Positions 14,318-54,961 of a stretch of DNA of 64,000 bases are shown one piece after another; positions within the stretch are counted from its first letter, which is position 1; the number at the start of each line of letters is the position of its first letter. Under the pieces are notes generated by a model. It did not search any database and had not been told where the DNA came from. It worked only from the letters and a program-made list of their open reading frames with translations. Location: the NCBI GenBank assembly GCA_003024175.1, contig MDYQ01000150.1:1-64000 (forward strand), written 5' to 3'. The DNA comes from Planoprotostelium fungivorum (taxonomy: Eukaryota; Evosea; Variosea; Cavosteliida; Cavosteliaceae). Both the position numbers and the translations under genes were made by a program.

Positions 14318-16448
14318 ATGCAGTCGATCCGAAGAGTTATCACATCCACAAGGAGAGTTGGTAAAGTAACACTCTCACACAATGGCAACTATAACAGAGT
14401 GAGGGACATGATTAAGAACAAATGATGACGGAAGAATGATTCAAGTGATATTGATTCTTGTGAAGATCCCCTCTGTCAAGTTGAACCAAGTTTGTGTCAG
14501 ACCTCTCGTCACTCCCTTCCGATTCAACCGAGCTCTCCACACTACCCGTGTCATGTGTGCAGCTCAGCAACAAAGTAACACACCAGGTATGTTTCTCCGA
14601 CATCATTCATCACTCTCAAAATGGAGGAGCGATTCACAGAAAGGAAACTGAAGTAGATCAGATGCCAATGGAGTCATCCCTTTCATTTTGTCTGACCCTG
14701 GAGAGGGTGAGATCGTTTCCTTTTTTTCTTGGTTGCTGAAAAGTGTCCTGTAGGAATCGCAGAGTGTGAGGTGCTGAAGTGGTCGGTGAAAGAGGGAGAC
14801 AAAGTATCTCAATTCGATATGCTGTGCGAGATCCAATCAGACAAAGCGGTTGCTGAGATCACCTCCCGATTCGATGGTATCATCAAAAAGATCCATTACC
14901 AGAAGGGTCAGATGGCTCAGGTCCGTATGCGTCACAGATGCATTTTCACCTCATTCACTTCATCTTATCATCTTACGTCATTCAACTCGCAACGACACAT
15001 CATATCATTCAATTCAATTGAAAGAGAATAGGTGGGAACACCATTGGTGGATATCTACGTTGGTGGTGGAACGGTAGGAGAGACCATCTCCTCGGGTGAC
15101 AATCTCTCTCCATCTACTGTTCCCATGGGATCTCCAGATATGGGTCTGGGAGGTGCCAAGCAGCCCATCATCCAGGTACCTTCATCAACATGAACATCCT
15201 CTTCCCTCTCTTCATCTTCACACATGTACAAGATTGACACAGAAGAAAGGTAGAAGGACACGTCAACAGCGGAAAGAGTGGGTCAGAAGAAGTCTTAGCC
15301 AGAGACGACCAGAAGGCCATGGCCAGCCCCGCCGTTCGTCACATCGCAAAGAAGTATGGAATCGCATTACACAAGATCAAGGTGAACGCTCTTCCTTCTA
15401 TAGTGACTGACAGGAACAAAGCCCAGTGGAAAGGAGGGAAGGATCACGAAGGAGGACATCATGAACTACATCAATCGACCGATGGCAGAGGAGAAGGTGG
15501 AGAAGGTGGCAAGCAGCCCCGCAGGAAGGGTCGTAGAGGTGGCGGAGGCATTCAAGAGCAGCAGCGCCAGCGTGGGAATCACGGAGGACCGAGTGGTTCC
15601 TCTCTCGGGTTACAGTCGAATCATGGCCAAGACGATGACGCAATCTCTCACCATTCCTCACTTTGGTCTGTGTGATGAGATCATCGCTGATGGTATGATC
15701 AAGTTACGTTCTCAACTCAAGGTATGTCACTCTTGTCGTCATCATCATCTGATCATCATATCTCATCATATCTCATCATATCTCATCATCTCTCGATCGA
15801 AAGGAAGAGAGGAAGACTGAAAGGGAGCAGAAAACGGCAGAGGAGCAGGGAGTCAAATTGACTTACATGCCCATCATCCTCAAGGCCACATCCATGGCCC
15901 TGTCACGATACCCCCAACTCAACGCTTCCTTCAACGAGGGATCCCTCGTCACCATCCAAAAGTCATCCCACAACATCGGTGTGGCCATGAACACACCCAA
16001 CGGCCTCGTCGTGCCCAACATCAAGGACGTTCAGAGGAAATCCATCTTGGACATCGCCAGGGAGCTCAACCGTCTGCAGGCTGCCGCCAATGGAGCCGGC
16101 CTGGGAAGAGAAGATCTGTCGGGGGGAACGATATCCATCAGCAACATCGGCACGATCGGTGGAACGTACGCTTCCCCCGTCATTGTAGCACCTGAGGTGG
16201 CCATTGGGGCCGTTGGTAAGATTCAGAAGGTGCCCAGATATGACTCTCACGGTGCCGTTGTGCCCGTACACATCTTCAACATCAGGTGCGTGCCGTTGTA
16301 TTCGTGTGGTTGTATTTCGTGTGGACTGAGCGCCTCCAGCTGGTCGGCCGATCATCGGGTGATCGATGGAGCGACGATGGCCAACTTCTCGAACGCGTGG
16401 AAGGAGTATCTGGAGAACCCCAGCGCCATGTTGTTTGAGATGAAGTAA
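14318..16448 (+). CDS. DBT: Branched-chain 2-oxoacid dehydrogenase E2 (lipoamide acyltransferase)
   Basis: This is the dihydrolipoyl transacylase core of the mitochondrial BCKDH complex, which degrades leucine, isoleucine and valine. The N-terminus MQSIRRVITSTRR plus the RALHTTRVM segment form an Arg-rich mitochondrial presequence spread over two exons. The lipoyl domain reads FILSDPGEGIAECEVL with the lipoyl lysine in EIQSDKAVAEITS. The E1/E3-binding domain is ASPAVRHIAKKYGI through GRITKEDIMNYI. The catalytic domain includes IPHFGLCDEI, NASFNEG, IGVAMNTPNGLVVPNI and the active-site SADHRVIDGA. The SDKA form of the lipoyl motif and the overall match favour BCKDH E2 over PDH E2. About seven introns. 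A poly(A) signal lies near 16527. Confidence 0.9.
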
Positions 16449-17563: not shown

Positions 17564-20069
17564 ATGCCCCCCACAGATCGTAAAGTCGAGGAGATCATCA
17601 CGGAGAGAGCCAAGGCTAGAGAGGCAGGAGAAGATCTTCCTCCAGTCGTCGCAGAGAAGGTGGCAGAGAAGGTGACGGAAGTGGCCTCTCACCTTGCAGA
17701 ACAAGCGAAAGAGGTGAGTGGGTGTAATCGTTTGTTGCATTCTGAAGATATCAAGGTCGCGTCACACACGGCAGAAGTTGCAAAGGAGAAGTTGTATCAA
17801 GGAAAGGAACAGGCGAAAGAGGTGAGGTGACGACGTTCGTTCATACTGATCTGAAAAGGTGATCGGCCAACTGAGTGATAAAGCCAATGAAGGAATCCAC
17901 TATCTCACCCAACCCGGCACTGGACCGGTAGAGATCGCTGCCTCCAAAGCGACTGGTGAGCATCATTCCGACGCGCGAGAATGACCCAGACAGAGGTGGT
18001 GTTACAACAGGGCAAGACGGCAGTAGACTACGCTCAACAAAGAGTGGAGGAAGCGAAGAAGTACCTGTCAGAGACAAGCACGGAAGAGATGAGACAACAA
18101 GCCATCACGCAGTTGAATCAAGCTAGAGAAGCCCTTCAACACGCACAGGTGATGCCCTCCTTATCCTTCTCACGCGACGGTCACCGATCACCTTGAACAT
18201 GATGAGCTGATGTGAAGCAGGCACAAGCATCAGAGATCTATTCTGCGACGAGAGACAACCTCAAAGAGGCATCCCAACAAGCCGGCGCCCTCTTGAAAGA
18301 AGCACAGAGCGGTGCTCAACAAGTGAAGGAATACGTCGGACAGAGATCCTCTGCCGCTGGAGAAGGTGAGAGAGGAAAGGAAGAGTGAATATGAACGAGG
18401 GACAGGTATCCGTGAACTGAAGAAGATGACGGACGACAGCACGACCATGGTGAAAGAGTTTGCCTCGAACGTCTCCGACAAGGCCCAGCAAGCGGGAGCC
18501 GTGAGCGTTCACTTGTTCTTCCTTTCACTCGATGCATCAGACGTGAGAACTGAAGGAGGATAGGTTGTGGTGGAGAAGGTGCAAAAGGCATCGGATGTGG
18601 CATCCACGGCAGTGAAGGAAGTGAAGGAGAAGGGTCAGGCTGTGGTGGACACAGGAAGAAGTGTCGTGGAAGAAGGAAAGAAGAAGGTGGAGGAGGGAGT
18701 GAAGAAGGTGCGAGAGGTGAAGGAACAAGTGGAGGAAGAGAGCAGAGAGGCAGTACAGAAGGGAAAGGAGGTCATTCAAGAGGGGAAGAAGAGAGTGGAG
18801 GAGGGAAAGAAGAAGGTGGAGGATGTCAAAGAGGACGTGAAGGAGAAGACGAAGAAGGTGGAGGATGTCAAAGAGGACGTGAAGGAGAAGACGAAGAAGG
18901 TGGCAGAGAAGGGAAAGGAGGCAGTGGAAGAGGGAAAGAAGAAGGGAGAGGAAGTGAAGGAGGGAGTGAAAGAGAAGGCGAAGAAGGTGGCAGAGAAGGG
19001 AGAAGAGATCGTAGAGGGAGGAAAGAAGAAGGTGGAGGAGGGAAAGAAGAAGGCAGAGGAAGTGAAAGAAGAGGCCAAGGACAAGACGAAGAAGGTGGCA
19101 GAGAAGGGGAAAGAGGTCGTAGAGGAAGGAAAGAAGAAGGCAGAGAACGTCAAGGAGGAAGGAAAGAAGAAGGTGGAAGAGGGAAAGAAGAAGGCAGAGA
19201 ACCTCAAGGAAGAAGGAAAGAAGAAGGTGGAAGAAGTGAAAGAAGGAGCAGAGGAGAAGACAAAGAAGGTGGCAGAGAAAGGAAAGGAGGCTGTGAAGAA
19301 GGGAAAGAAGAAGGCAGAGGAAGTAGAAGAAGAGGCGGAAGAGAAGACAAAGAAGGTGGCAGAGAAGGGAAAGGAGAAGGTGGAGGAAGGAAAGGAGGCT
19401 GTGAAGAAGGGAAAGAAGAAGGCAGAGGAAGTAGAAGAAGAGGCAGAAGAGAAGACAAAGAAGGTGGCGGAGAAAGGAAAAGAGAAGGCAGAGGAACTGA
19501 AGGAGAAGGGAAAGAAGAAGCTGGAAGGAGGGAAGAAGACAGAGGAGGAAGAGGAAGAGCACACGAAGAAGGGAAAGGCAACCAAGGAGGAGGAAGAGAC
19601 CAAGAAGAAGGGCAAGGAAAGCAAAGAGAAGGAGGAAGAGGAAGAAGAGGAGGACGAAGAGCAGAAGATAGAGAAGAAGAAGGAGAAGAAGAAGGGAGAG
19701 GAAGAGGAGGAGAAGGAGGAGAAGAAAGACAAGAAGGAGAAGAAGAAGGGAGAGGAAGAGCAGAATAAGGAGGAGAAGAAAGAGAAGAAAGAAGGCAAGA
19801 AAGAGAAGAAGGGAGAGGAAGAGGAGGAGGAGAAGACAGAGGAGAAGGAACACAAGAAGGAGAAGACGAAGAAGGGAGAGGAAGAGGAAGGCAAGGAAGA
19901 CAAGAAAGGAGAGGAAGAGGAAAAGAACGAAGAGGAGGAAAAACTGAAGGCAGACAAGAAGAGTGATGCTGTATATAACTTATCAAAAGAGGTGAGTCAC
20001 AATCCACTGCACCTTTCGTCTGATTCCCTTCAGCACATCAAAGAGACAGCCATCAAATCCAAATTGTAA
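17564..20069 (+). CDS. Lys/Glu-rich amphipathic repeat protein (LEA/apolipoprotein-like)
   Basis: The N-terminal part (17564-18560, six small exons) is an Ala/Glu/Lys-rich helix with motifs such as EKVAEKVTEVASHLAEQ and QQGKTAVDYAQQRVEEAKK, recalling apolipoprotein or LEA group 3 repeats. A single exon from 18567 to about 19990 then encodes tandem, imperfect repeats built from KKVAEKGKEAVEEGKKK and KKAEEVKEE (18660-19540). It ends in an almost pure Glu/Lys run with occasional Thr (19540-19960). A final small exon after a 44 bp intron ends at 20069. Such sequences form extended charged helices, often in desiccation tolerance, lipid-droplet coating or cytoskeletal spacing. Very high purine content on this strand makes the opposite strand appear as a long Leu/Ser frame, which is an artefact. 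Confidence 0.75.
18660..19960. repeat. Coding tandem repeats, purine-rich
   Basis: Units of about 33-54 bp recur within the Lys/Glu-rich gene. For example, a block encoding VEDVKEDVKEKTKK is immediately duplicated at about 18817-18897, and a longer block around EEVEEEAEEKTKKVAEKGKE recurs at about 19315-19370 and 19425-19480. The near-identity of neighbouring copies shows recent unequal exchange or slippage, so copy number may vary between strains. Confidence 0.8.
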
Positions 20070-21156: not shown

Positions 21157-21663
21157 TACATCTCCTTCTCTCCTTGTATCTGTTCGTCTTCCCTCCGACG
21201 CGTGAGGCTTCTGGTGAGGGAGAAGATGGAGGGTAACGACTGTGTAGTAAAGAGATAGAGAAGGTAGTGTGTGGGCAGCAATTGAAGCTGCGGGATGTCG
21301 AACTGAAAGTGTCAACGGAGATTTCGGTGAACTGCGACATGTTACGGTCCATACATCACACATCAACAAACAAAAGCCTTCAAACAGCCCTCTGTGTGTA
21401 TTCTGACTTCTTCTTTTCCTCTCTTCCATGAATCTATCGTATTTTTCATCTCTTGACATCTAAATCTTCGACTTGCGATATCACACTGTCCACACATATA
21501 TTGAAGAGAATCGGTCGTTGCATCTATCCTTATCGTCATCACAACTTTTCGATTGATGAATCATATGCAGCCGCCACACTACCGACGACCGCCAAACGGT
21601 GAGCCCATCCGTGATATCATTTCCATCTTATGCATCTAGTATCACCACCACCCGTAACACCTG
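21157..21663. other. Intergenic interval, no supported gene
   Basis: This interval holds the 3' flank of the YIPF6-like gene and the leader of the RNA-binding gene. A minus-strand open frame (about 21459-21151) exists but has an implausible composition and partly overlaps the end of YIPF6. An ATG at 21555, followed by a GTGAG intron, could be an upstream leader exon of the RNA-binding gene, but it runs into a stop in both possible junctions I tried. Confidence 0.4.
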
Positions 21664-23593
21664 ATGGAACATAACATCAACAACAATGTCTCCTCCACTC
21701 TCTTCCTAGCTGAACTTCCCTTCGACATCACACAAGAAGATCTCGTCTCCATCTTCGAGGTGTACGATGGATTTCAATCTGCCCGCATCAGGAAAGACAA
21801 GAACAACAAGTGAGCCATGATCTCATCTACAACCTCTCAGCCCTTCAGCTTGGTCGCTTTCTTGGAATTCTCTGACGCCGACGCGGCTGCTACGGCCAAA
21901 TCCAATGCACAGGGAATCAAATTTGGTATCACCGATAAGTTATTAGGTGCGTACGTCACCACGATCATCTTCTCATGACAACAGTGGTACAATTTGCCTA
22001 CAAGGGCAGCAGATCCAGATCTCGCTGCTCGGACATCAACCTTTCTTACAACGAAGGTGAGAACATGCACGGAGAGGGTGTTGATCTATTCTTAGCCTTC
22101 AGAGATTCCGCTGGTCTCAACAGCTCCATGGGAAGCCTCAATCTCAGTGGAGGTGAGAATCCGAGGAGTTTTCTGTGATGACGTAATCAGGGATCCCCTA
22201 TTCTCCATCTCACTACCACACGACCACCACACCATCCCCCCAGACCAATCATTTGGGCCGCCAGCCCTTCAACGGCATCGATTACATGGACCAAATCAAA
22301 TCTTCCTTTCCCGATCAACCCCAGGTGAAGTGTCCCTTCCTCCCCTTTCTCATTCGAATGAGAAGATCTACAACGCCTTTGTGGACATCATGACGGAGGT
22401 CAGACTGCATCAATTGGACCCTGCAGCAGGGCTGACTGCCATGTGCGACCTCTTCAAAGAACGAGAGGAACTGATGTCAGGTCTCAACTCCCTCTTCCCA
22501 GGCTACCGCGTAGACAGAAATCCCAACGGAGAGTGTCTCGTTGTAGTTGTCCCAGGTGATCTCCATCTTCCCTCCCAGCTGAATCGAACAGAAGGAAACA
22601 CCATCCCCCCCGCCTTCCTGGGTAAGGGTGTACAGACAGTTCAGCCCATCACCCCAGGGATGAACATACCATCGCTATTTAACAACGGACAGAACACTCT
22701 CTCCAGCAGCCCCAACTATCTCCCCAACTCTTCCTTCCTTCCCTTCGATGCCGGTAGTCCCTTTCACTTCTCCACTCCTCCCTTTGGTAATGGAGTCTTC
22801 CTGGGAACTCCTCCCTCCTCGCTCAATCCTCAAATCCATCCCTTCCCCAGCCCTTCTCTGCCGGTGAGATGTCGTCATGAATGATCATCGTGGGACGTCA
22901 TCATAACACGTCATCACGACATGTGATCGTGAGATGATGATGAGATGTCGTGCATCTCTTGTCGATCTTGTGTGATGGAGGGTTGATGGGATGACAGCCA
23001 CACCTCCGCAGTCGTGGGATGCAGAGCAGTGGACAGGACCTTCCGCTCTCTTCCTCCCTCCCTCCCTTCTATTCCACCGGCCCCTCCTCCTTCAACTATG
23101 TGATTCCCTCATCATCATCTCCTCTCACCTCTCCACAGCCACAGTCACAACAGATCCCCGAAGAGGCCTCCTCCACTCTATACGTAGAAGGTCTACCCTT
23201 AGACGCCACCGAGAGAGAGGTGAATAACGAGTGAAATGATCATTCAAGTTGAACGGAATAGGTGGCCCACATCTTCAGACAGTGGCCGGGCTATCAATCT
23301 TTGCGCATCCTTCAGAAGGACGGAAAGTTATTCACCGGACGCACTTACAACCTGTGCTTCGTCGAGTTTGATAACAAGCACCAAGCCACTCTCGCCATGC
23401 AGCACATTCAAGGTTACAGGTGATCATCGACATCCACATGATGAGATGATGTGATGATGTGATGCTGACGGAGGAAAGGATCGACAAGAACGACAACAAG
23501 GGCATCGTGATCACTTACGCCAAGACCGAACGTAAAGAGAGGAGAAAAACCATCAGCAGCCTTCCCATGCCCGTGCCCAGCCTCACCATCTAG
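21664..23593 (+). CDS. RRM-PAH-RRM fusion: RNA-binding protein with a Sin3-type paired amphipathic helix domain
   Basis: Three domains read in one frame across about eight introns. RRM1 (about 21690-22000) starts STLFLAELPFDITQEDLVSIF and continues FSLVAFLEFSDADAAATA. A Ser/Thr/Pro-rich spacer follows. The middle domain (about 22270-22530) is a paired amphipathic helix: GIDYMDQIKSSFPDQPQ, then IYNAFVDIMTEVR, LDPAAGLTAMCDLFK and LMSGLNSLFPGYRV, the canonical Sin3 PAH order. A long Pro/Ser/Asn-rich linker leads to RRM2 (about 23160-23560) with LYVEGLPLDATEREV (RNP2) and YNLCFVEFDN (RNP1). PAH domains recruit short helical motifs of repressors to the Sin3/HDAC complex; RRMs bind single-stranded RNA. 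I checked phase at every junction between the three domains and it is consistent. A link between RNA binding and transcriptional repression is inferred. Confidence 0.82.
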
Positions 23594-24135
23594 TTCTGTT
23601 CGATCGTCCCAGAGACAATAAACCCACACCGCCTCTTGACTCTCGCCGCTCTTCGTTGCAGAAGCCTGGTCGGTCTAAATCCTCATGAGCAGAGCCGGCT
23701 TTGGTTGTCACCCCTGACGTCAAGAGCCTGTCAAATGAGTCACCAGAGATCTCGGGTGTCTGTTTGTTCGCTTATCTTCGATTTGAGTGTCGTTGAGCTT
23801 CTCTACATGGCCTGGCTCTGTGGGTGGTATGGACGGCCTTGAACCTGCCTCGCTTGCACTTCCTCTGCTGTACCGTCATGATGGTTGTATTTCTACTTTT
23901 GACGTGAGATCTCTGGCGGAGTAGCGGAAGCGAAGGCCCTGTCCTAAATTCGGACTTAAGGCGAGTCCCTAGGAATGGCGGTGACAGACGGTTGTGGGGG
24001 GCAACGTCACCTGTAGTCAAGATTAAAGCTGCTTCTCTTCACATTGCGAATTTGTCAAGTCTGCCACATTCCTCGCGGTATGGCGTTAGAGAGGACTGCT
24101 GTGGTCTCAGTAAGATACAGACGTATACACAGGGG
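23594..24135. other. Intergenic interval, nothing recognised
   Basis: About 540 bp between two plus-strand genes. A poly(A) signal (AATAAA) at about 23615 belongs to the RNA-binding gene. I looked for tRNA or small RNA hallmarks in the GC-rich part (23900-24000) and found no A/B box pair. One TGACGTCA octamer lies at 23715-23722. Confidence 0.4.
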
Positions 24136-27100
24136 ATGGCCCTCTTCGGATTGGCGTTGCTTCTTGCAGCCGCCGTCTTGTGTACCGCACAGACATCAAC
24201 TGAGCTCGTTGCATTGCAGAGACAAGCTTTGATCGATCTGTATCATTCTACGAATGGTGAGACGGGTGAAAAGTTCAATGTTCACATATAACATCAGGAG
24301 ATAATTGGAGGACGAATACCCACTGGCTGAATGACACGCTCGGCTTCTGCGAATGGTCCGGCGTTTCATGTTATTCACAGGATAGAACTATAACCAACCT
24401 GAACCTGGTGAACATTGAACTCAGTTCCATGCTGATTCATCCAGCAAGAGAATAATCTCAATGGGACATTGCCGAATAACATTGGAGACTTGGGTTACAC
24501 CGTAGGGACCTTCCAATTAGACAACAACCCGTTGTTGACGGGAATACTCCCACCATCGATGGCCAACTTTGTCAATGTCTGGCTCTTCGGTCTCGCTGGG
24601 ACAAATCTACAGGGCCCCCCACCTCTTCTCTACCGTTATGCCCAATTAACAACCTTCGTCATCTCTGTGCGTATCATGATGTAATCTGTCCTCATTTTCC
24701 TCAGGGCAGTAATTTCTCGGGACCCTTTCCGATCAGTCTCTGCTCTCTTCCTCAAATGAGAGAGATTCAAATAGAAAGGAATCATTTCACTGGCCCCATC
24801 CCCTCCTGCGTCAGCAATTTCACCAAGGTATGTCCACCCATCTCCGTCTTCTCATCGGCATCAGCTCAATCTCTTCCATCTGAACGACAATCTCTTCAAC
24901 GGGACCATCCCCCAGTCCCTGTGCAACTCGCCCACTTTAAGAGAGATCTACCTGTGGGTCTTCATGATGTTCTCGTGTTACACGGGTGACACTCTTCAGA
25001 CAAAACAACCAATTCGAAGGACAGATCCCACCGTGTATCGGAAACCTCACCTCGCTCAAACAACTCTTCCTCCAGGGAAATCGTCTGTCGGGTGAGCTGA
25101 GAGGAGTTGAGAAGTTGAGCGTTCATAGGCAGTATACCCTCCTCTCTCAGTGGCCTCACATCGATCGATACGATCTATCTGTACAGCAATCGACTGACTG
25201 GCTCCATTCCCCACTTAAATTCAACTCTGCTTCGCAATGTAGAGGTGAGTCGAGATGAGATGACGAGGTGATGGAGAGATGACCTTAGATAGGTTCAGGA
25301 CAATCGATTGAGTGGGGATCTACCTGATCTAAGCGGCTGTACGATACTCGAAACCCTACGATTCGAAAGTGAGAGGAGAGGAGAGGAATGTCACTGAATA
25401 AGAGCAGATAACATGATCACGGGAATCGTCCCCAATTGGACGAAACAATTGAGAACCATCACTGCACAGAATACCTATATCCACGGTAGGAATTCATTTG
25501 TTCATCAACGGGATCTGAAAGAGGACAGGCATCAACGTCACACAGTCTGATTCTCCACTGTGGAGCAATTGCGGATTTAACGACAATTACATTCCCTGCC
25601 CCATCACATCGACTCTCCTCCTCAATCAATGTCACCTATCCCCCACAGACTGCATCTCCCCTCCTTACATCTTCACCCTCTACACCGATGACTTCCTCTT
25701 CGGTGATCTCATCTTCCCATCCCCTCACTCATTCGTGTTCAGAACTTGGAAAGATCGCCGCCCAGGACTTCCCCAATGTCGTGATCACGTTCACCGGGGG
25801 TGATTATCCTGGCTTCACCTTCAACCTTCCCAATTCAGATGTGACATTCATCTTCGATGCCAATGTGGACGTCAGGTTCAACGGTTCGATCTCCATCAAC
25901 GTGAAGACCCTCCAGACCGTCCGCTCCTTTTCCATCTACAACGCTCAGAGTGACGTCTTATTGGATGTGACGGCTACTTCGGTGAATGTGACTGGACTCT
26001 ACATGACGAATTGCGCGGCCACCCGCGGTATCAATCTCAAGGTGGATACTGTTGCCATGGATACCGTAGTCATCCTTCACAATCGACTCTCCTGTGAGTG
26101 GATTCCACATTTTCTCTTCTCATTCTCTTCAGCCGTGTTAGGCATGGTCAGCACCTCCAATTTCAGCATGTCAAACAGCAGAATGGAGGACAATGGAGGA
26201 AATAGCACCATCTCTCTATCTGCCGGTGACGTCGATCAATTTCTACTGGAGAACATCACTTTCTCCGGACAGAAGAGAGGTCTGTACATGTCAACGAACA
26301 CCATCTCATCCCTTTTCTTGGACAACCTGATAGCGAACCGTCACAATGGGGGTGAGTATCTCACCTCTGCTTCTTCTCATGGATACAGGTGCCATCATCG
26401 TTCAGACTCAAACGTTAGATGTTTTATCTGTACGAAACGCAAATTTCTCTACCAATTCCATATCCAATAACGGTGCTGCTATGTCCATCAACGCTACCAC
26501 CTACCTGGGAGACATCCGCGTAGATTCAACCACCATCAGTGGTCATCAAGCCATCCAAGGAGGAGCCGTATACATCACATCACCTTCCATCGCATCCATC
26601 ACCCTCTCCTCTTCATCCCTCTCCCAAAATCGAGCCCTCTACCACGGTGGTGCCATCCACGTAGAGACGAGACAGAACATGAACTGGAACGTGATGGACA
26701 GCAGTTTCACGAACAACCAAGGAAGTGGAGGATCAGGAGGAGCCATCTATCTGAAGACGGATGGAAATGTCACCTTCTCTCTCCTTGGATCATCTTTGAA
26801 TGGAAACCAAGCGGTGGGAGGTGGTGCCATCTACTTGAATTCCTCCCTGGGTCTCTTGAACCAGTTGAACCTGGTGGATGTGAAGGTGGAAGACAATCAA
26901 GCCTCTGGATCGGGTGGTGCCTTCTATTTGGAAGCGAAGGGTGATGATCTGATGATGGATCCATGGACTGACCGGTGATGATCAGGCATCGAGAACGTCA
27001 CGTTGAACGGCGTACATTTTTCGAATAATTCGGGTGGCAGTGGAGGTGCATTCAGCCTCGTGGCGAGACAGGGAGTGGAACAGTTATCCTTGTCATCTGT

Positions 27101-43238: not shown

Positions 43239-45012
43239 ATGGCTATGAACGCAGCGAAAGCAGCCCTCCAATCCGTAACGGATACGGTAAAGACATCTCA
43301 TCCATCCATCTTCGGATGCATCCTCTTTACGTGTCTCTGATGCATCCTCTCAGATTACGGGACAGAATTCCAACACGATGACTCGCCAGACGGGTGAGCC
43401 CATCGGTGAGAACAAGAACTCCCTCACGGCCGGCCCCACTGGCCCAGTCATCTTCCAAGACAGAGTTCTGTATGAGAAGATCGTCACCTTCAATCGCGAA
43501 CAACAACCCTTGAGAAACGTCCACGCCCTCGGTACCGGTGCTAGAGGAACGTTCGTCGCAGAGAACGACGTGAGCCAGTATTCCAGAGCTCAAGTCTTCG
43601 TACCCGGCACGAAGACCGAGATCGCCGTACGATTCTCCGGCACTTTCACCGAGAGGGGAGATCCAGACACGACCCGTGATTTAAGAGGTGAGAATCATCA
43701 TCGTGGCGTCCGTGATGTCCACGTCATCTCACATGCGTCATCAGGTTTTGCCATCAAGTTTTACACGACCGAAGGAAACTGGGATCTGATGGCCATCAAC
43801 ACGCCCGTCTTCAACGTAAGAGACATGAAGTCCGGTCCCGACGCCGTCCACGCCTTCAAGCGTAACCCCATCACCGGTGACTGGGATCCCAACCAGAGCT
43901 GGGACTACGTTGCCACCCACCCCGAGGGTCTCCACCAGGTCCTCATGATCTGGACCGATCGCATCGGAACACCCGCATCGTTCAGAGCCATGAACGCTTT
44001 CGGTTGCAACACCTTCTCCTTCATCAACTCGCAGAACAAGAGATGCTGGGTCAAGTTTCACATCGTCGCCGAGCTGGGATGGAAGGGTCTGTCTGTCGTC
44101 GATGCGAAGATTTTGGCGGGAGAGAACGCCGAATTCTTGTCGCAGGATCTGAGAGATGCGATCGCGGCCGGTAACTACCCCAAGTACAAGCTGTCCTTCC
44201 AGGTCATGCCCGAAGAAGAAGGCTACACCCACAACTACACCTTCGATTGCACAAAGGTGATCGCATCGTCATCATCGTCGATCTTGTCACAGTAATATTC
44301 ACATTCTGAATAGGTCTGGCCCCACGACAAATTCCCTCTCATTCCATTGGGAACCCTCACCCTCGACCGCAATCCCGACGATCACTTCACCGAAGTGGAG
44401 AGCATCGCTTTCTCTCCCATGAACGTCGTCCCTGGTATCAGCTTCTCCCCCGACAAGCTTCTCCAGGGCAGACTCATCGTCTACGACGACACTCAGACCC
44501 ACAGACTCGGTGCCGCCTTCAAGCAGCTCCCCATCAACTGCCCACACGCCACCCGAGTCAACAACAACGTCTACCAAGGTAGAGGTGGTAGACAGGCTCA
44601 CGGTGTTAAATTCCCCCACTACTGGCCTTCTTCGTTCGGTGGACCACAACCCGACCCTTCTTACCGCGAGCCACCCATGAGAGTCGACGGACCGGTCGAC
44701 CACTACGACTATCCCGGAGAAGGCACGGACGAGGACTACTACTCGCAGTGCACCGACTTCTACAACAGTCTGCCTCAGGGAGAGAAGATGGCTCTGGCAA
44801 AGAATCTCGCGGCGACGTTCTTCAAGATGAGCCCGCCCCTCGTGGCGGCGGCGATGAAGCACTTGTATAAGGTGTCGTCGAATCTGGGGGATGCCATCAA
44901 GAACAAGTTGGAAGAGGGAAGGAAGACGGATATGACCAAGGAGGAGATCAGGGCGGGAGAGCTGTATGCCATGATGCAAGGACTCGCTCCCGAGAAGATC
45001 ATCTCCAAGTAG
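43239..45012 (+). CDS. Catalase
   Basis: A short first exon (MAMNAAKAALQSVTDT) splices in frame over a 60-odd bp intron into ITGQNSNTMTRQTGEP, so the true start is at 43239 rather than the ATG at 43378. The heme catalase core is clear. The distal histidine is in RNVHALGTGARGTF, the asparagine in NTPVFNVRD, GFAIKFYTTEGNWDL matches the core, and the proximal heme tyrosine lies in GRLIVYDDTQTHRLG. HPEGLHQVLMIW and FGCNTFSFINS follow the family order. It breaks hydrogen peroxide into water and oxygen. Departures from the usual sequence include RNVHALG for R-V-V-H-A-(K/R)-G and a changed serine loop (RFSGTFTERGD). The C-terminal extension is helical. No SKL-type peroxisomal end; the last residues are KIISK. 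Confidence 0.9.
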
Positions 45013-52410: not shown

Positions 52411-54961
52411 ATGAGCGAAGACAACAAGATCTTGCAGTATCAACCCTTCTCGACCAGCGTCAGCGTCGACTTTTGGTTCGAGTTGACAAAGAAGAAGTTG
52501 GAGGAATACAAGTTATCAGAGGCACCCGTTTACATTAGAGGACAATATAATGCCTCTCAATTCGCAGCTCTGCAAGAGACACAGGCCGCAGAGGGAAAGG
52601 CACAACTACCTGCTGTTTTTCAGATCGATTCGGAATCATTACATCACGAGAAGCCAGCACAAGGAGTTCAGTTCTCATGCGTCAGTCCAGGAGTTCTTCA
52701 CAACACCAACACTAGCGAGACATTTGCATCTTTAGACAAAGTTGTTCTCCTTGACAAAGTCGCAGCACAGGTGAGATACCTCACGATTAGAAGCACAGAA
52801 TCATTATATCTCTCCAACAGCTACGACAGACTCCATATGCGGATTGATGACGTCGACAGATATGGAGTGATATTGAGAGTGGAAAAGCGATAGAGGACAG
52901 TTCCAGATTGAACCGTTTCCTCTTGTTGACCTTCGCCGATCTTAAGAAGCACCATTTTTATTATTGGTTCGCCTTCCCCGCCCTCCAACTCAATCCTGCA
53001 GCCACGGCAACACCTTCCATCCCTGCAGATCAGGTCTCGAACATCTCCCTCCATCATACAATCTTTCGACTCACATCAATGATAGGCATTGGGTGCCGAT
53101 CGCATCGACTCCATCAGAGAACAGTTGTCTTCTCAATCCTCCGTCGAACCCTTCTTTCTCATCCACCTCGGAGGTGAATCATCTTCCTCCTCCATCGACT
53201 CATTCGTCACAGACAGACCAACGGTGAAGAAGATCAGCGAATACAACGCCGAAGGAGAGGTACATCTCTCGCATGTACCATGTCCATCTGATCGTGATGC
53301 AGACAGTCTTCGCCTTTCTGGACCCTTGTTATCTCACTCCTCACCCCGGTTGGCCCCTACGAAACTTTCTCACTCTCATCTCTCAGAAATTCCAATTGAA
53401 GAGCTGCAAGATTCTCTGTTACAGAGAGCATCATGCGGTGGGTTGCATGATGATGATGAAGAAGATGATAGTGACGATGTACAGGAGCGCTCGAGTATCG
53501 TCATTGATGTCACCCTACCATCTACAACGAGCCAGAACCAACCCAAGGCCGTGGGTTGGGAGAAGAAGGCGAATTTCGTGAACCTGAGCAAGCAGATGGA
53601 TCCCGCCAAGCTGATGTCAGCCTCCGTTGATCTCAATCTGAAGCTGATGCAGTGGAGGCTGATGCCCTCCCTACAGCTGCAGAAGATCTTCAACACAAAG
53701 TGTCTATTATTAGGCGCTGGAACTCTAGGCTGTAACGTCGCACGAGCTCTCATGGTGAGTGAAACTACGTACGACATCACACCATCCCACCGAGATGTCT
53801 CCGTCGACATTTCACTGAATGTCGACAGTCGTGGGGTGTTCGTCACGTGACCTTGGTGGACAACGGTAAAGTGTCCTACTCGAATCCAACGAGACAATCT
53901 CTCTTCGAATTCAGCGACTGCCGCGGCAGCAACAAAGCCGAAGCCGCGGCGGCCAGACTGCGCCAGATCTTTCCCGGAATGGTGAGTGAAATTTCCTTGA
54001 ATATCTCACCGACTTTTCCAGGAATCTCGCGGGGTGGTGATGAGCATTCCCATGCCGGGTCACCCCATCAGCACAGGAGAAGAGAAGAACACGAGAGATT
54101 CAGTTCAACTATTAGACCAACTCATCGCAGAACACGATGCCGTCTTCATTCTGACCGATTCAAGAGAGAGTCGATGGTTACCCACCCTCCTCTGTGCTCA
54201 CAGGGGGTGAATCCATCTACAACGAGCCACGACGTCTCCTCACTCTCTGCAGGAAGATCGCCATCAACGCGGCGCTCGGCTTCGATTCGTATCTAGTCAT
54301 GAGGCACGGATTAGGCAGACGCGAAGAGGCAGACGTTTATTCTCCCCAATTAGGGTGTTACTACTGCAACGACGTCGTCGCACCGCAGAACGTGAGGAAG
54401 TCGAGTTGAATGGAGGCTGAAACGAGAGATAGTCCCTGAGAGATCGAACACTGGATCAGCAGTGCACTGTCACTCGCCCGGGGCTGTCACAGATGGCATC
54501 CGCTCTCGCCGTCGAACTCCTCGTCAGCATCTTACACCACCCCCTGGGGTGAGTCATGAAGAGATGACTTCTCATCTCATCATGACTTCTCATCTCATCA
54601 TGACTCAGGGGTCACGCTCCCGCCGATGCAGCGAGAGATCTCAATGAGAAGACGACCATGGAATTAGGCATCCTACCTCATTCGATACGTGGCTTCCTCG
54701 CTCACTTCTCTACGATCCTGCTCGAGTGCCCTTCCTATTCAAAGTGCACGGCCTGCTCTCCCGTGGTGAGTGTGATGACGTGGTGTGACGTCATCGTGAC
54801 GTGTGCAGGTGGTGGAGGAGTATTCGAAGAGGGGGTTCGATATGATTAAGGATGCGATGAACACACCTTCTTACCTGGAAGATCTGACTGGTCTGACGGA
54901 GATGAAGAAGGAAGCAGAACAAGTGTCGTGGGAAGTAGAAGAAGCAGACGATGACTTTTAG
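52411..54961 (+). CDS. ATG7: ATG7, E1-like enzyme of autophagy
   Basis: ATG7 activates ATG8 and ATG12 with ATP and passes them to ATG3 and ATG10. The N-terminal domain reads [37 protein letters not shown] and [20 protein letters not shown], all characteristic. The adenylation domain has [20 protein letters not shown], the nucleotide-binding [53 protein letters not shown] and [16 protein letters not shown]. The catalytic cysteine is in [24 protein letters not shown] and a later KCTACSP provide the zinc-binding pairs. The C-terminus is the acidic [10 protein letters not shown] that binds ATG8. About eleven introns. The ATG at 52411 gives [13 protein letters not shown]; an upstream in-frame ATG would overlap the VPS51 stop. 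Confidence 0.95.

Follow-up and report, generated by a model that had tools for sequence, protein, structure and literature searches.

A predicted Sin3-type PAH domain between the two RRMs of an NSR-like protein from Planoprotostelium fungivorum

The stretch of DNA analysed here (the window) comprises 64,000 nucleotides from Planoprotostelium fungivorum and contains, on its plus strand, what is by its sequence a real, single gene encoding a protein with two RRMs and one paired amphipathic helix (PAH) domain. The features of this locus are as follows:

21664–23593, plus strand: whole gene, ATG to TAG, with a 499-aa open frame after splicing at junctions placed from sequence and homology
21664–21809, 21849–21946, 21985–22056, 22096–22152, 22191–22324, 22366–22863, 22998–23219, 23262–23419 and 23479–23593, plus strand: exons of the gene
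21691–22010, plus strand: RRM1, with two introns inside and approximate ends (Pfam RRM_1, 46.7 bits)
22271–22324, plus strand: first part of the PAH (NGIDYMDQIKSSFPDQPQ), which aligns with helix 1 of Sin3 PAH1
22325–22365, plus strand: phase-0 intron that splits the PAH at the codon boundary where the Sin3 gene of the same genome has its PAH1 intron (G000:C12:20906-20869)
22366–22555, plus strand: second part of the PAH (IYNAFVDIM...GYRVDRNPNGECLVVVVP) and its tail, helices 2–4 by homology
22556–22591, plus strand: possible additional 36-nt phase-1 intron (GTGATC...ACAG), near the phase-1 intron of Sin3
22592–22863, plus strand: Pro/Ser/Asn-rich linker
22998–23168, plus strand: remaining linker with a PPFYS motif that is present in P0001 too (SELPPFYSVGP)
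23169–23524, plus strand: RRM2, with two introns inside and approximate ends (Pfam RRM_1, 48.6 bits)
23617–23622, plus strand: AATAAA, starting 24 nt past the last base of the stop codon

Splicing of the nine exons removes eight GT-AG introns, seven of 38–59 nt and one of 134 nt, and gives an ATG-to-TAG frame without internal stops that encodes RRM1, PAH and RRM2 in this order; the remaining two frames of the spliced mRNA contain 13 and 12 stops. One plus-strand gene with all three domains in consistent phase had already been proposed in a preliminary description made from the letters of the window, and this reading held, with both RRMs and the PAH scoring above their Pfam cut-offs. The intron within the PAH ends in a doubled acceptor (GAG/AAG/), with AG at 22362 or at 22365: use of the former adds one extra Lys, and since this residue interrupts the alignment to Sin3 we set the first acceptor aside and chose the later one, which gives PDQPQ/IYNAF without the extra Lys. 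This is the junction written in the preliminary description, and it fits the Sin3 alignment. The frame is open both when the possible 36-nt intron is removed (487 aa) and when it is retained (499 aa). As exon 22366–22863 has phase 0-0, its skipping would keep the frame and leave a two-RRM protein of 333 aa, so that a splice switch is possible; were the 36-nt intron real, such a switch would require the skipping of two exons. Downstream of RRM2, the AATAAA at 23617–23622 is the sole copy of this motif on the plus strand in 21500–24200. Counted on both strands of the window (1–64000), AATAAA occurs 30 times, against 13.3 copies expected from shuffles (maximum of 100: 27), which suggests that the motif acts as a polyadenylation signal here.

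When submitted as separate 95-aa pieces, each of the two RRMs scored above the cut-off of the RRM_1 model (PF00076; 20.7 bits), and the top protein match, P0001, is 57% identical to RRM1 at 21688–21948 and 72% identical to RRM2 at 23256–23438. A homologue search that scored the 7993 candidates sharing most words, limited by protein length, found 55 homologues of 275–425 aa. RRM_1 is matched by all 55 of these proteins and PAH by none, leaving our query as the only PAH match among the 56 sequences; the two RRMs are 50–191 aa apart in the homologues as compared to 306 aa here, measured on the alignment. Read column-wise over all 56 rows, query included, the RRM1 columns L13, F14, F31, G36, R41 and D45 as well as the RRM2 columns are conserved in at least 90% of the rows, and hence RRM1 and RRM2 are parts of a single protein in this family. 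We therefore provisionally rejected an arrangement of two or three separate genes, against which also speak the 16 homologue sequences examined and the position of the sole AATAAA (21500–24200, plus strand) past RRM2. The PPFYS motif ahead of RRM2 is common to P0001, which places the extra piece between RRM1 and PPFYS. In this genome, which comprises 36.9 Mb in 471 contigs, the P0001 query returned three pieces, all from this locus, and no second gene of the two-RRM family was found.

Judged by homology along both RRMs, the protein is a member of the two-RRM NSR-like family: one of the homologues carries the name "nuclear speckle RNA-binding protein A-like", and NSR-like proteins such as P0021 of Balamuthia and P0001 have their RRM1 and RRM2 regions arranged as here, P0001 also sharing the RRM2 core and the PPFYS linker motif. 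They differ from the protein described here in their closer spacing of the RRM regions and in the absence of a PAH match from all 55 that were found. Plant NSR proteins, to which the present gene is linked by name, are reported to have a role in alternative splicing (PMC7073835; PMC6111844), and a KRPR nuclear localization motif and an angiosperm motif have been described for the plant family (PMC7073835). RRM2 also resembles the RRMs of MEC-8 (E 3.8e-9) and RBPMS (7.4e-7) in the PDB, with Sex-lethal (2.5e-8) and U1A (2.8e-8) matching about as well. The RBPMS/couch potato (CPO)/MEC-8 group is reported to share a homodimer motif, D-x-K-x-R-E-L-Y-L-L-F, with an essential Leu (PMC4150794). By eye, this motif is partly present in RRM2 (DATEREVAHIF) and in RRM1 (DITQEDLVSIF); the essential Leu (L49, the first Leu of YLLF in the numbering used here) is replaced by His in RRM2 and Ser in RRM1, and on this ground we do not place the protein in the RBPMS/CPO/MEC-8 subfamily. 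From their family, the RRMs are expected to bind RNA.

PAH domains are best known from the Sin3 corepressor, where they serve as sockets. The candidate PAH is clearly identified against Sin3 chains and marginally in Pfam: on PF02671 the exon alone scores 25 bits, the domain stretch 25.3 bits and the stretch with one extra Lys 23.5 bits, and in the whole protein the corrected splice scores 21.6 bits and the splice with the extra Lys 20.6 bits, at a cut-off of 21.3; PAH1 of the Sin3 from the same genome reaches 72.3 bits. Against PDB sequences, the best match was the Sin3b chain 8bpa (E 5.6e-16, two PAHs summed), within which the PAH1 stretch contributes 38.8 bits and the PAH2 stretch 19.1 bits, followed by the SIN3 chain 8kc7 (E 2.1e-13) and the Sin3a PAH1 chain 2rmr (E 4.9e-11). 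The comparison with PF02671 and PF00076 that the preliminary description had proposed has thus returned one PAH and two RRMs, and a protein devoid of a significant PAH match, which was raised there as one way in which the fusion could fail, is excluded by the Pfam score and by the match to Sin3b. There was no match of the candidate stretch to PAH_ZNF598 (PF23202) up to E 1; the Sin3 PAH1 of the same genome scores 14.4 bits on this model, below its cut-off of 25, and the open-access literature searched contained no paper joining "PAH domain" with ZNF598.

Conservation within the domain was read against 60 aligned PAH1s, 58 of which were picked by similarity to the PAH1 of this genome, so that the statistics lean towards that sequence: at columns conserved in at least 80% of these PAH1s, the candidate keeps a hydrophobic residue at 24 of 25 hydrophobic positions and the identical residue at 19 of 46. 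Of the 27 columns that differ, 12 are not hydrophobic positions and 15 are, the latter with 14 swaps within the class and a single change from Val to Gly. When the candidate is shifted by 1–6 columns in either direction (12 registers), only 3–11 of the 25 hydrophobic positions are kept. Such a pattern would be expected of a domain that has diverged but still folds. The Thr-Pro-Gly-Val stretch of PAH1 reads Pro-Ala-Ala-Gly in the candidate, and two positions at which mutation of Sin3A is reported to matter are altered by alignment: Ala126, whose change to Val weakens ligand binding, is Gly here, and Lys155, whose change to Glu weakens the binding of Tet1 and SAP25, is Arg (PMC13068551). With these changes, the ligand preference of the candidate PAH may differ from that of Sin3 PAH1.

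In order to trace the source of the domain, we compared it with the other PAHs of the genome, in which six matches were obtained at E 0.001: three on contig C12, two on contig C458 and one at this locus. C12 carries a Sin3 with a Sin3_corepress match. A second Sin3-like gene lies at G000:C458:78859-80100 (L010), with two PAH matches and a third PAH-like stretch seen by eye; the genome search for Sin3_corepress at E 0.001 matched C12 alone and gave none on C458, which may be a paralogue without this region or one in which introns split the region. Nearest to the candidate is C12 PAH1 (33% identity over 73 residues, 59 bits), followed by PAH1, PAH2 and PAH3 of C458 with 38, 32 and 15 bits, respectively, while no match was reported for C12 PAH2 and PAH3. 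In C12 PAH1, a phase-0 intron of 38 nt separates AEQPK from VYNQF, and in the candidate PAH one of 41 nt, likewise phase 0, separates PDQPQ from IYNAF: both interrupt the aligned stretch after nucleotide 54, and this donor position holds whichever acceptor is used. An intron at this site is absent from C12 PAH2 and PAH3 and from all three PAHs of C458, in which the frames read through. The two aligned stretches contain 10 and 9 proto-splice-like MAG sites in 250 and 244 nucleotides, from which we roughly estimate that the odds of sharing the intron by coincidence lie between one in ten and one in 250. Sin3 has a second, phase-1 intron past the PAH (after ITTPS), and the candidate has a donor-like site, also in phase 1, after VVVP, at which the possible 36-nt intron would start.

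In the tree, the candidate stands beside C12 PAH1 and P0060 with support of 68/76, within a wider fork of seven PAH1-type rows (97/92); these support values are unsure because the candidate sits on a long branch (2.72). AU tests rejected none of the alternatives, namely grouping with PAH2 (p 0.41), grouping with PAH3 (p 0.46) and a PAH1 clade from which the candidate is excluded (p 0.45). The tree alone leaves the origin unsettled, and it is the pairwise scores and the intron that favour PAH1. Since C12 PAH1 is the best match and has its intron at the common codon boundary, we propose that a coding piece of Sin3 PAH1 was probably copied, intron included, into an existing NSR-like RNA-binding gene.

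The order of a PAH between two RRMs, singled out as unusual in the preliminary description, had no counterpart within the limits of our protein searches: length-limited searches found no RRM-PAH-RRM order in a second species. Among proteins of about 275–875 aa, the search for relatives of the PAH region gave 18 candidates, none of them at E 0.01, and with the Sin3 PAH1 of this genome as query against proteins of about 241–768 aa, precomputed domains placed PF00076 in none of the 120 matches listed (of 532). The same protein database contains two proteins that closely match the own Sin3, P0060 (91% identity over 91% of the PAH1 stretch) and P0093 (96% over 66%), and hence relatives are sampled at least in part. 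That the fusion is missing among them is mild evidence against a wide spread, or else reflects gene calling, since a gene of this kind would probably escape prediction in metagenome DNA rich in introns. We know of no RRM-PAH protein that has been described. In the open-access literature searched, no paper named PF02671 and PF00076 together, and among the matches listed no title or start of an abstract described an RRM with a PAH in connection with Sin3, amoebae or protists; RRM and RNA-binding are likewise absent from the main text of a review of such domains (PMC7948954). A PAH outside Sin3 and fused to unrelated domains is reported for AtWRKY19, given as PAH-WRKY-WRKY-NB ARC with a kinase domain (PMC4350883); its context is DNA binding and an immune receptor, as opposed to RNA binding here. 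Taken by its sequence, the protein is a real and unusual combination of known parts in a new order, for which a function is plausible.

For the function of the PAH, its counterpart in Sin3 offers a guide. A Sin3 PAH is described as a hydrophobic cleft or pocket for short amphipathic helices of transcription factors and adaptors (PMC6168491), with SAP25, Tet1 and REST among the reported ligands of PAH1 (PMC6168491; PMC13068551), whilst HDAC is held by a separate region of Sin3, the HDAC interaction domain with Sin3_corepress (PMC8143632). Sin3 PAH1, as seen in the Sin3a, Sin3b and SIN3 chains of the PDB and in C12, is homologous to the candidate and has the same hydrophobic pattern and, within this genome, the internal intron in common with it. 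Sin3 as a whole possesses several PAHs and Sin3_corepress, however, whereas the candidate is flanked by RRMs and has a single PAH stretch (the own-genome PAH search gave one match at this locus) and no Pfam match to Sin3_corepress (PF08295) or the HDAC interaction region. We therefore rejected the protein as a Sin3 scaffold, also because the Sin3_corepress match of this genome (E 0.001) lies on C12 alone. As Pfam matched no HDAC-binding region, the expected partners are the ligands of Sin3 PAH1 and not Sin3 or HDAC themselves. Of the suggestion in the preliminary description that Sin3/HDAC-type partners could be brought to RNA, the PAH as a socket for Sin3-type ligands stands, and HDAC falls away with the region that would hold it.

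The explanation that we favour, and consider reasonably probable, is that of a two-RRM protein from a single gene with an inserted Sin3 PAH1 module, whose cleft would bind PAH1-type helices on RNA. The module would have entered the linker between the RRMs by duplication of genomic DNA, intron included; the PAH is predicted by homology and by its retained hydrophobic positions to fold as a four-helix bundle with a hydrophobic cleft, which would accept short amphipathic helices from proteins whose usual docking site is Sin3 PAH1. Target RNA could in this way tether such repressors or adaptors, or share them with Sin3. The likely role would be recruitment of ligands of the Sin3 PAH1 type to RNA or competition with Sin3 for these ligands. 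If this is true, a PAH that moved with its intron into an RNA-binding protein represents a traceable case of exon shuffling and links RNA recognition to the network of Sin3 partners. Two predictions follow from the favoured explanation: the inserted PAH and Sin3 PAH1 should have ligands in common, and splicing may act as a switch. The case also illustrates that a PAH annotation by itself does not imply HDAC recruitment.

Other explanations have to be weighed against this. The PAH could fold and yet no longer bind Sin3-type helices, acting instead as a spacer, in self-association or as a socket for ligands of another kind. The candidate differs at 27 of the 46 positions conserved in PAH1, changes that could alter the shape of the cleft, and its branch in the tree is long, both in line with such a loss; hydrophobic character is nevertheless retained at 24 of 25 positions, and the residue aligned with Sin3A Lys155 is an Arg, as opposed to the Glu reported to weaken binding (PMC13068551), so that we hold this explanation to be unlikely, if worth keeping in mind. 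Somewhat more doubtful is a protein that acts as a competitor and holds the ligands of Sin3 PAH1 away from Sin3, with the RNA bound by the RRMs setting the amount of free ligand: the protein has a PAH1-like domain but no match to Sin3_corepress, and the genome encodes a Sin3 that does match it, which would suit this role, and the likely origin from the own Sin3 PAH1 suggests overlapping ligands, but the shared ligands and the relative amounts of both proteins are assumptions of this reading. In a bolder version of the favoured explanation, the exon-shuffled copy of the own Sin3 PAH1 would have converted a splicing-type RNA-binding protein into an RNA-tethered receptor for Sin3 ligands that alternative splicing could switch on and off, coupling RNA processing to chromatin repression; such switching could occur because most of the PAH lies in the phase 0-0 exon, and we put this version forward as speculative and of rather low probability.

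The fusion could also be largely absent as a protein, with the PAH exon mostly skipped or the locus giving separate transcripts. Skipping of exon 22366–22863 would leave a frame whose 333 aa fall within the 275–425 aa of the homologues. This fits poorly, however, with a PAH that keeps its frame and its hydrophobic positions and with the lack of an AATAAA between the domains; moreover, helix 1 of the PAH is encoded in another exon and would be left behind, and two exons would need to be skipped if the 36-nt intron exists. We consider this outcome improbable. That the PAH match is a chance likeness of an amphipathic stretch is rejected as extremely improbable, for although the whole-protein Pfam score lies near the cut-off (20.6–21.6 bits), the E-value against Sin3b, the homologous intron position and the hydrophobic positions kept all contradict it.

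Several further open frames were observed in the surrounding sequence. Upstream of the gene, a long Lys/Glu-rich repetitive frame occupies 18564–20069 on the plus strand, with long low-complexity frames on the opposite strand overlapping it, and it looks like a repeat or an LEA-like protein. The open frame at 15753–16448 presumably corresponds to the catalytic domain of a 2-oxo acid dehydrogenase E2, and two frames within 43291–45012 to a catalase and its C-terminal part; the frame at 53086–53850 has an end stretch that we assume to be like that of the E1-type enzyme ATG7. Downstream, at 24130–24600, lies what looks to us like a signal peptide followed by the start of an LRR-receptor-like protein (TELVALQRQALIDLYHSTNG).
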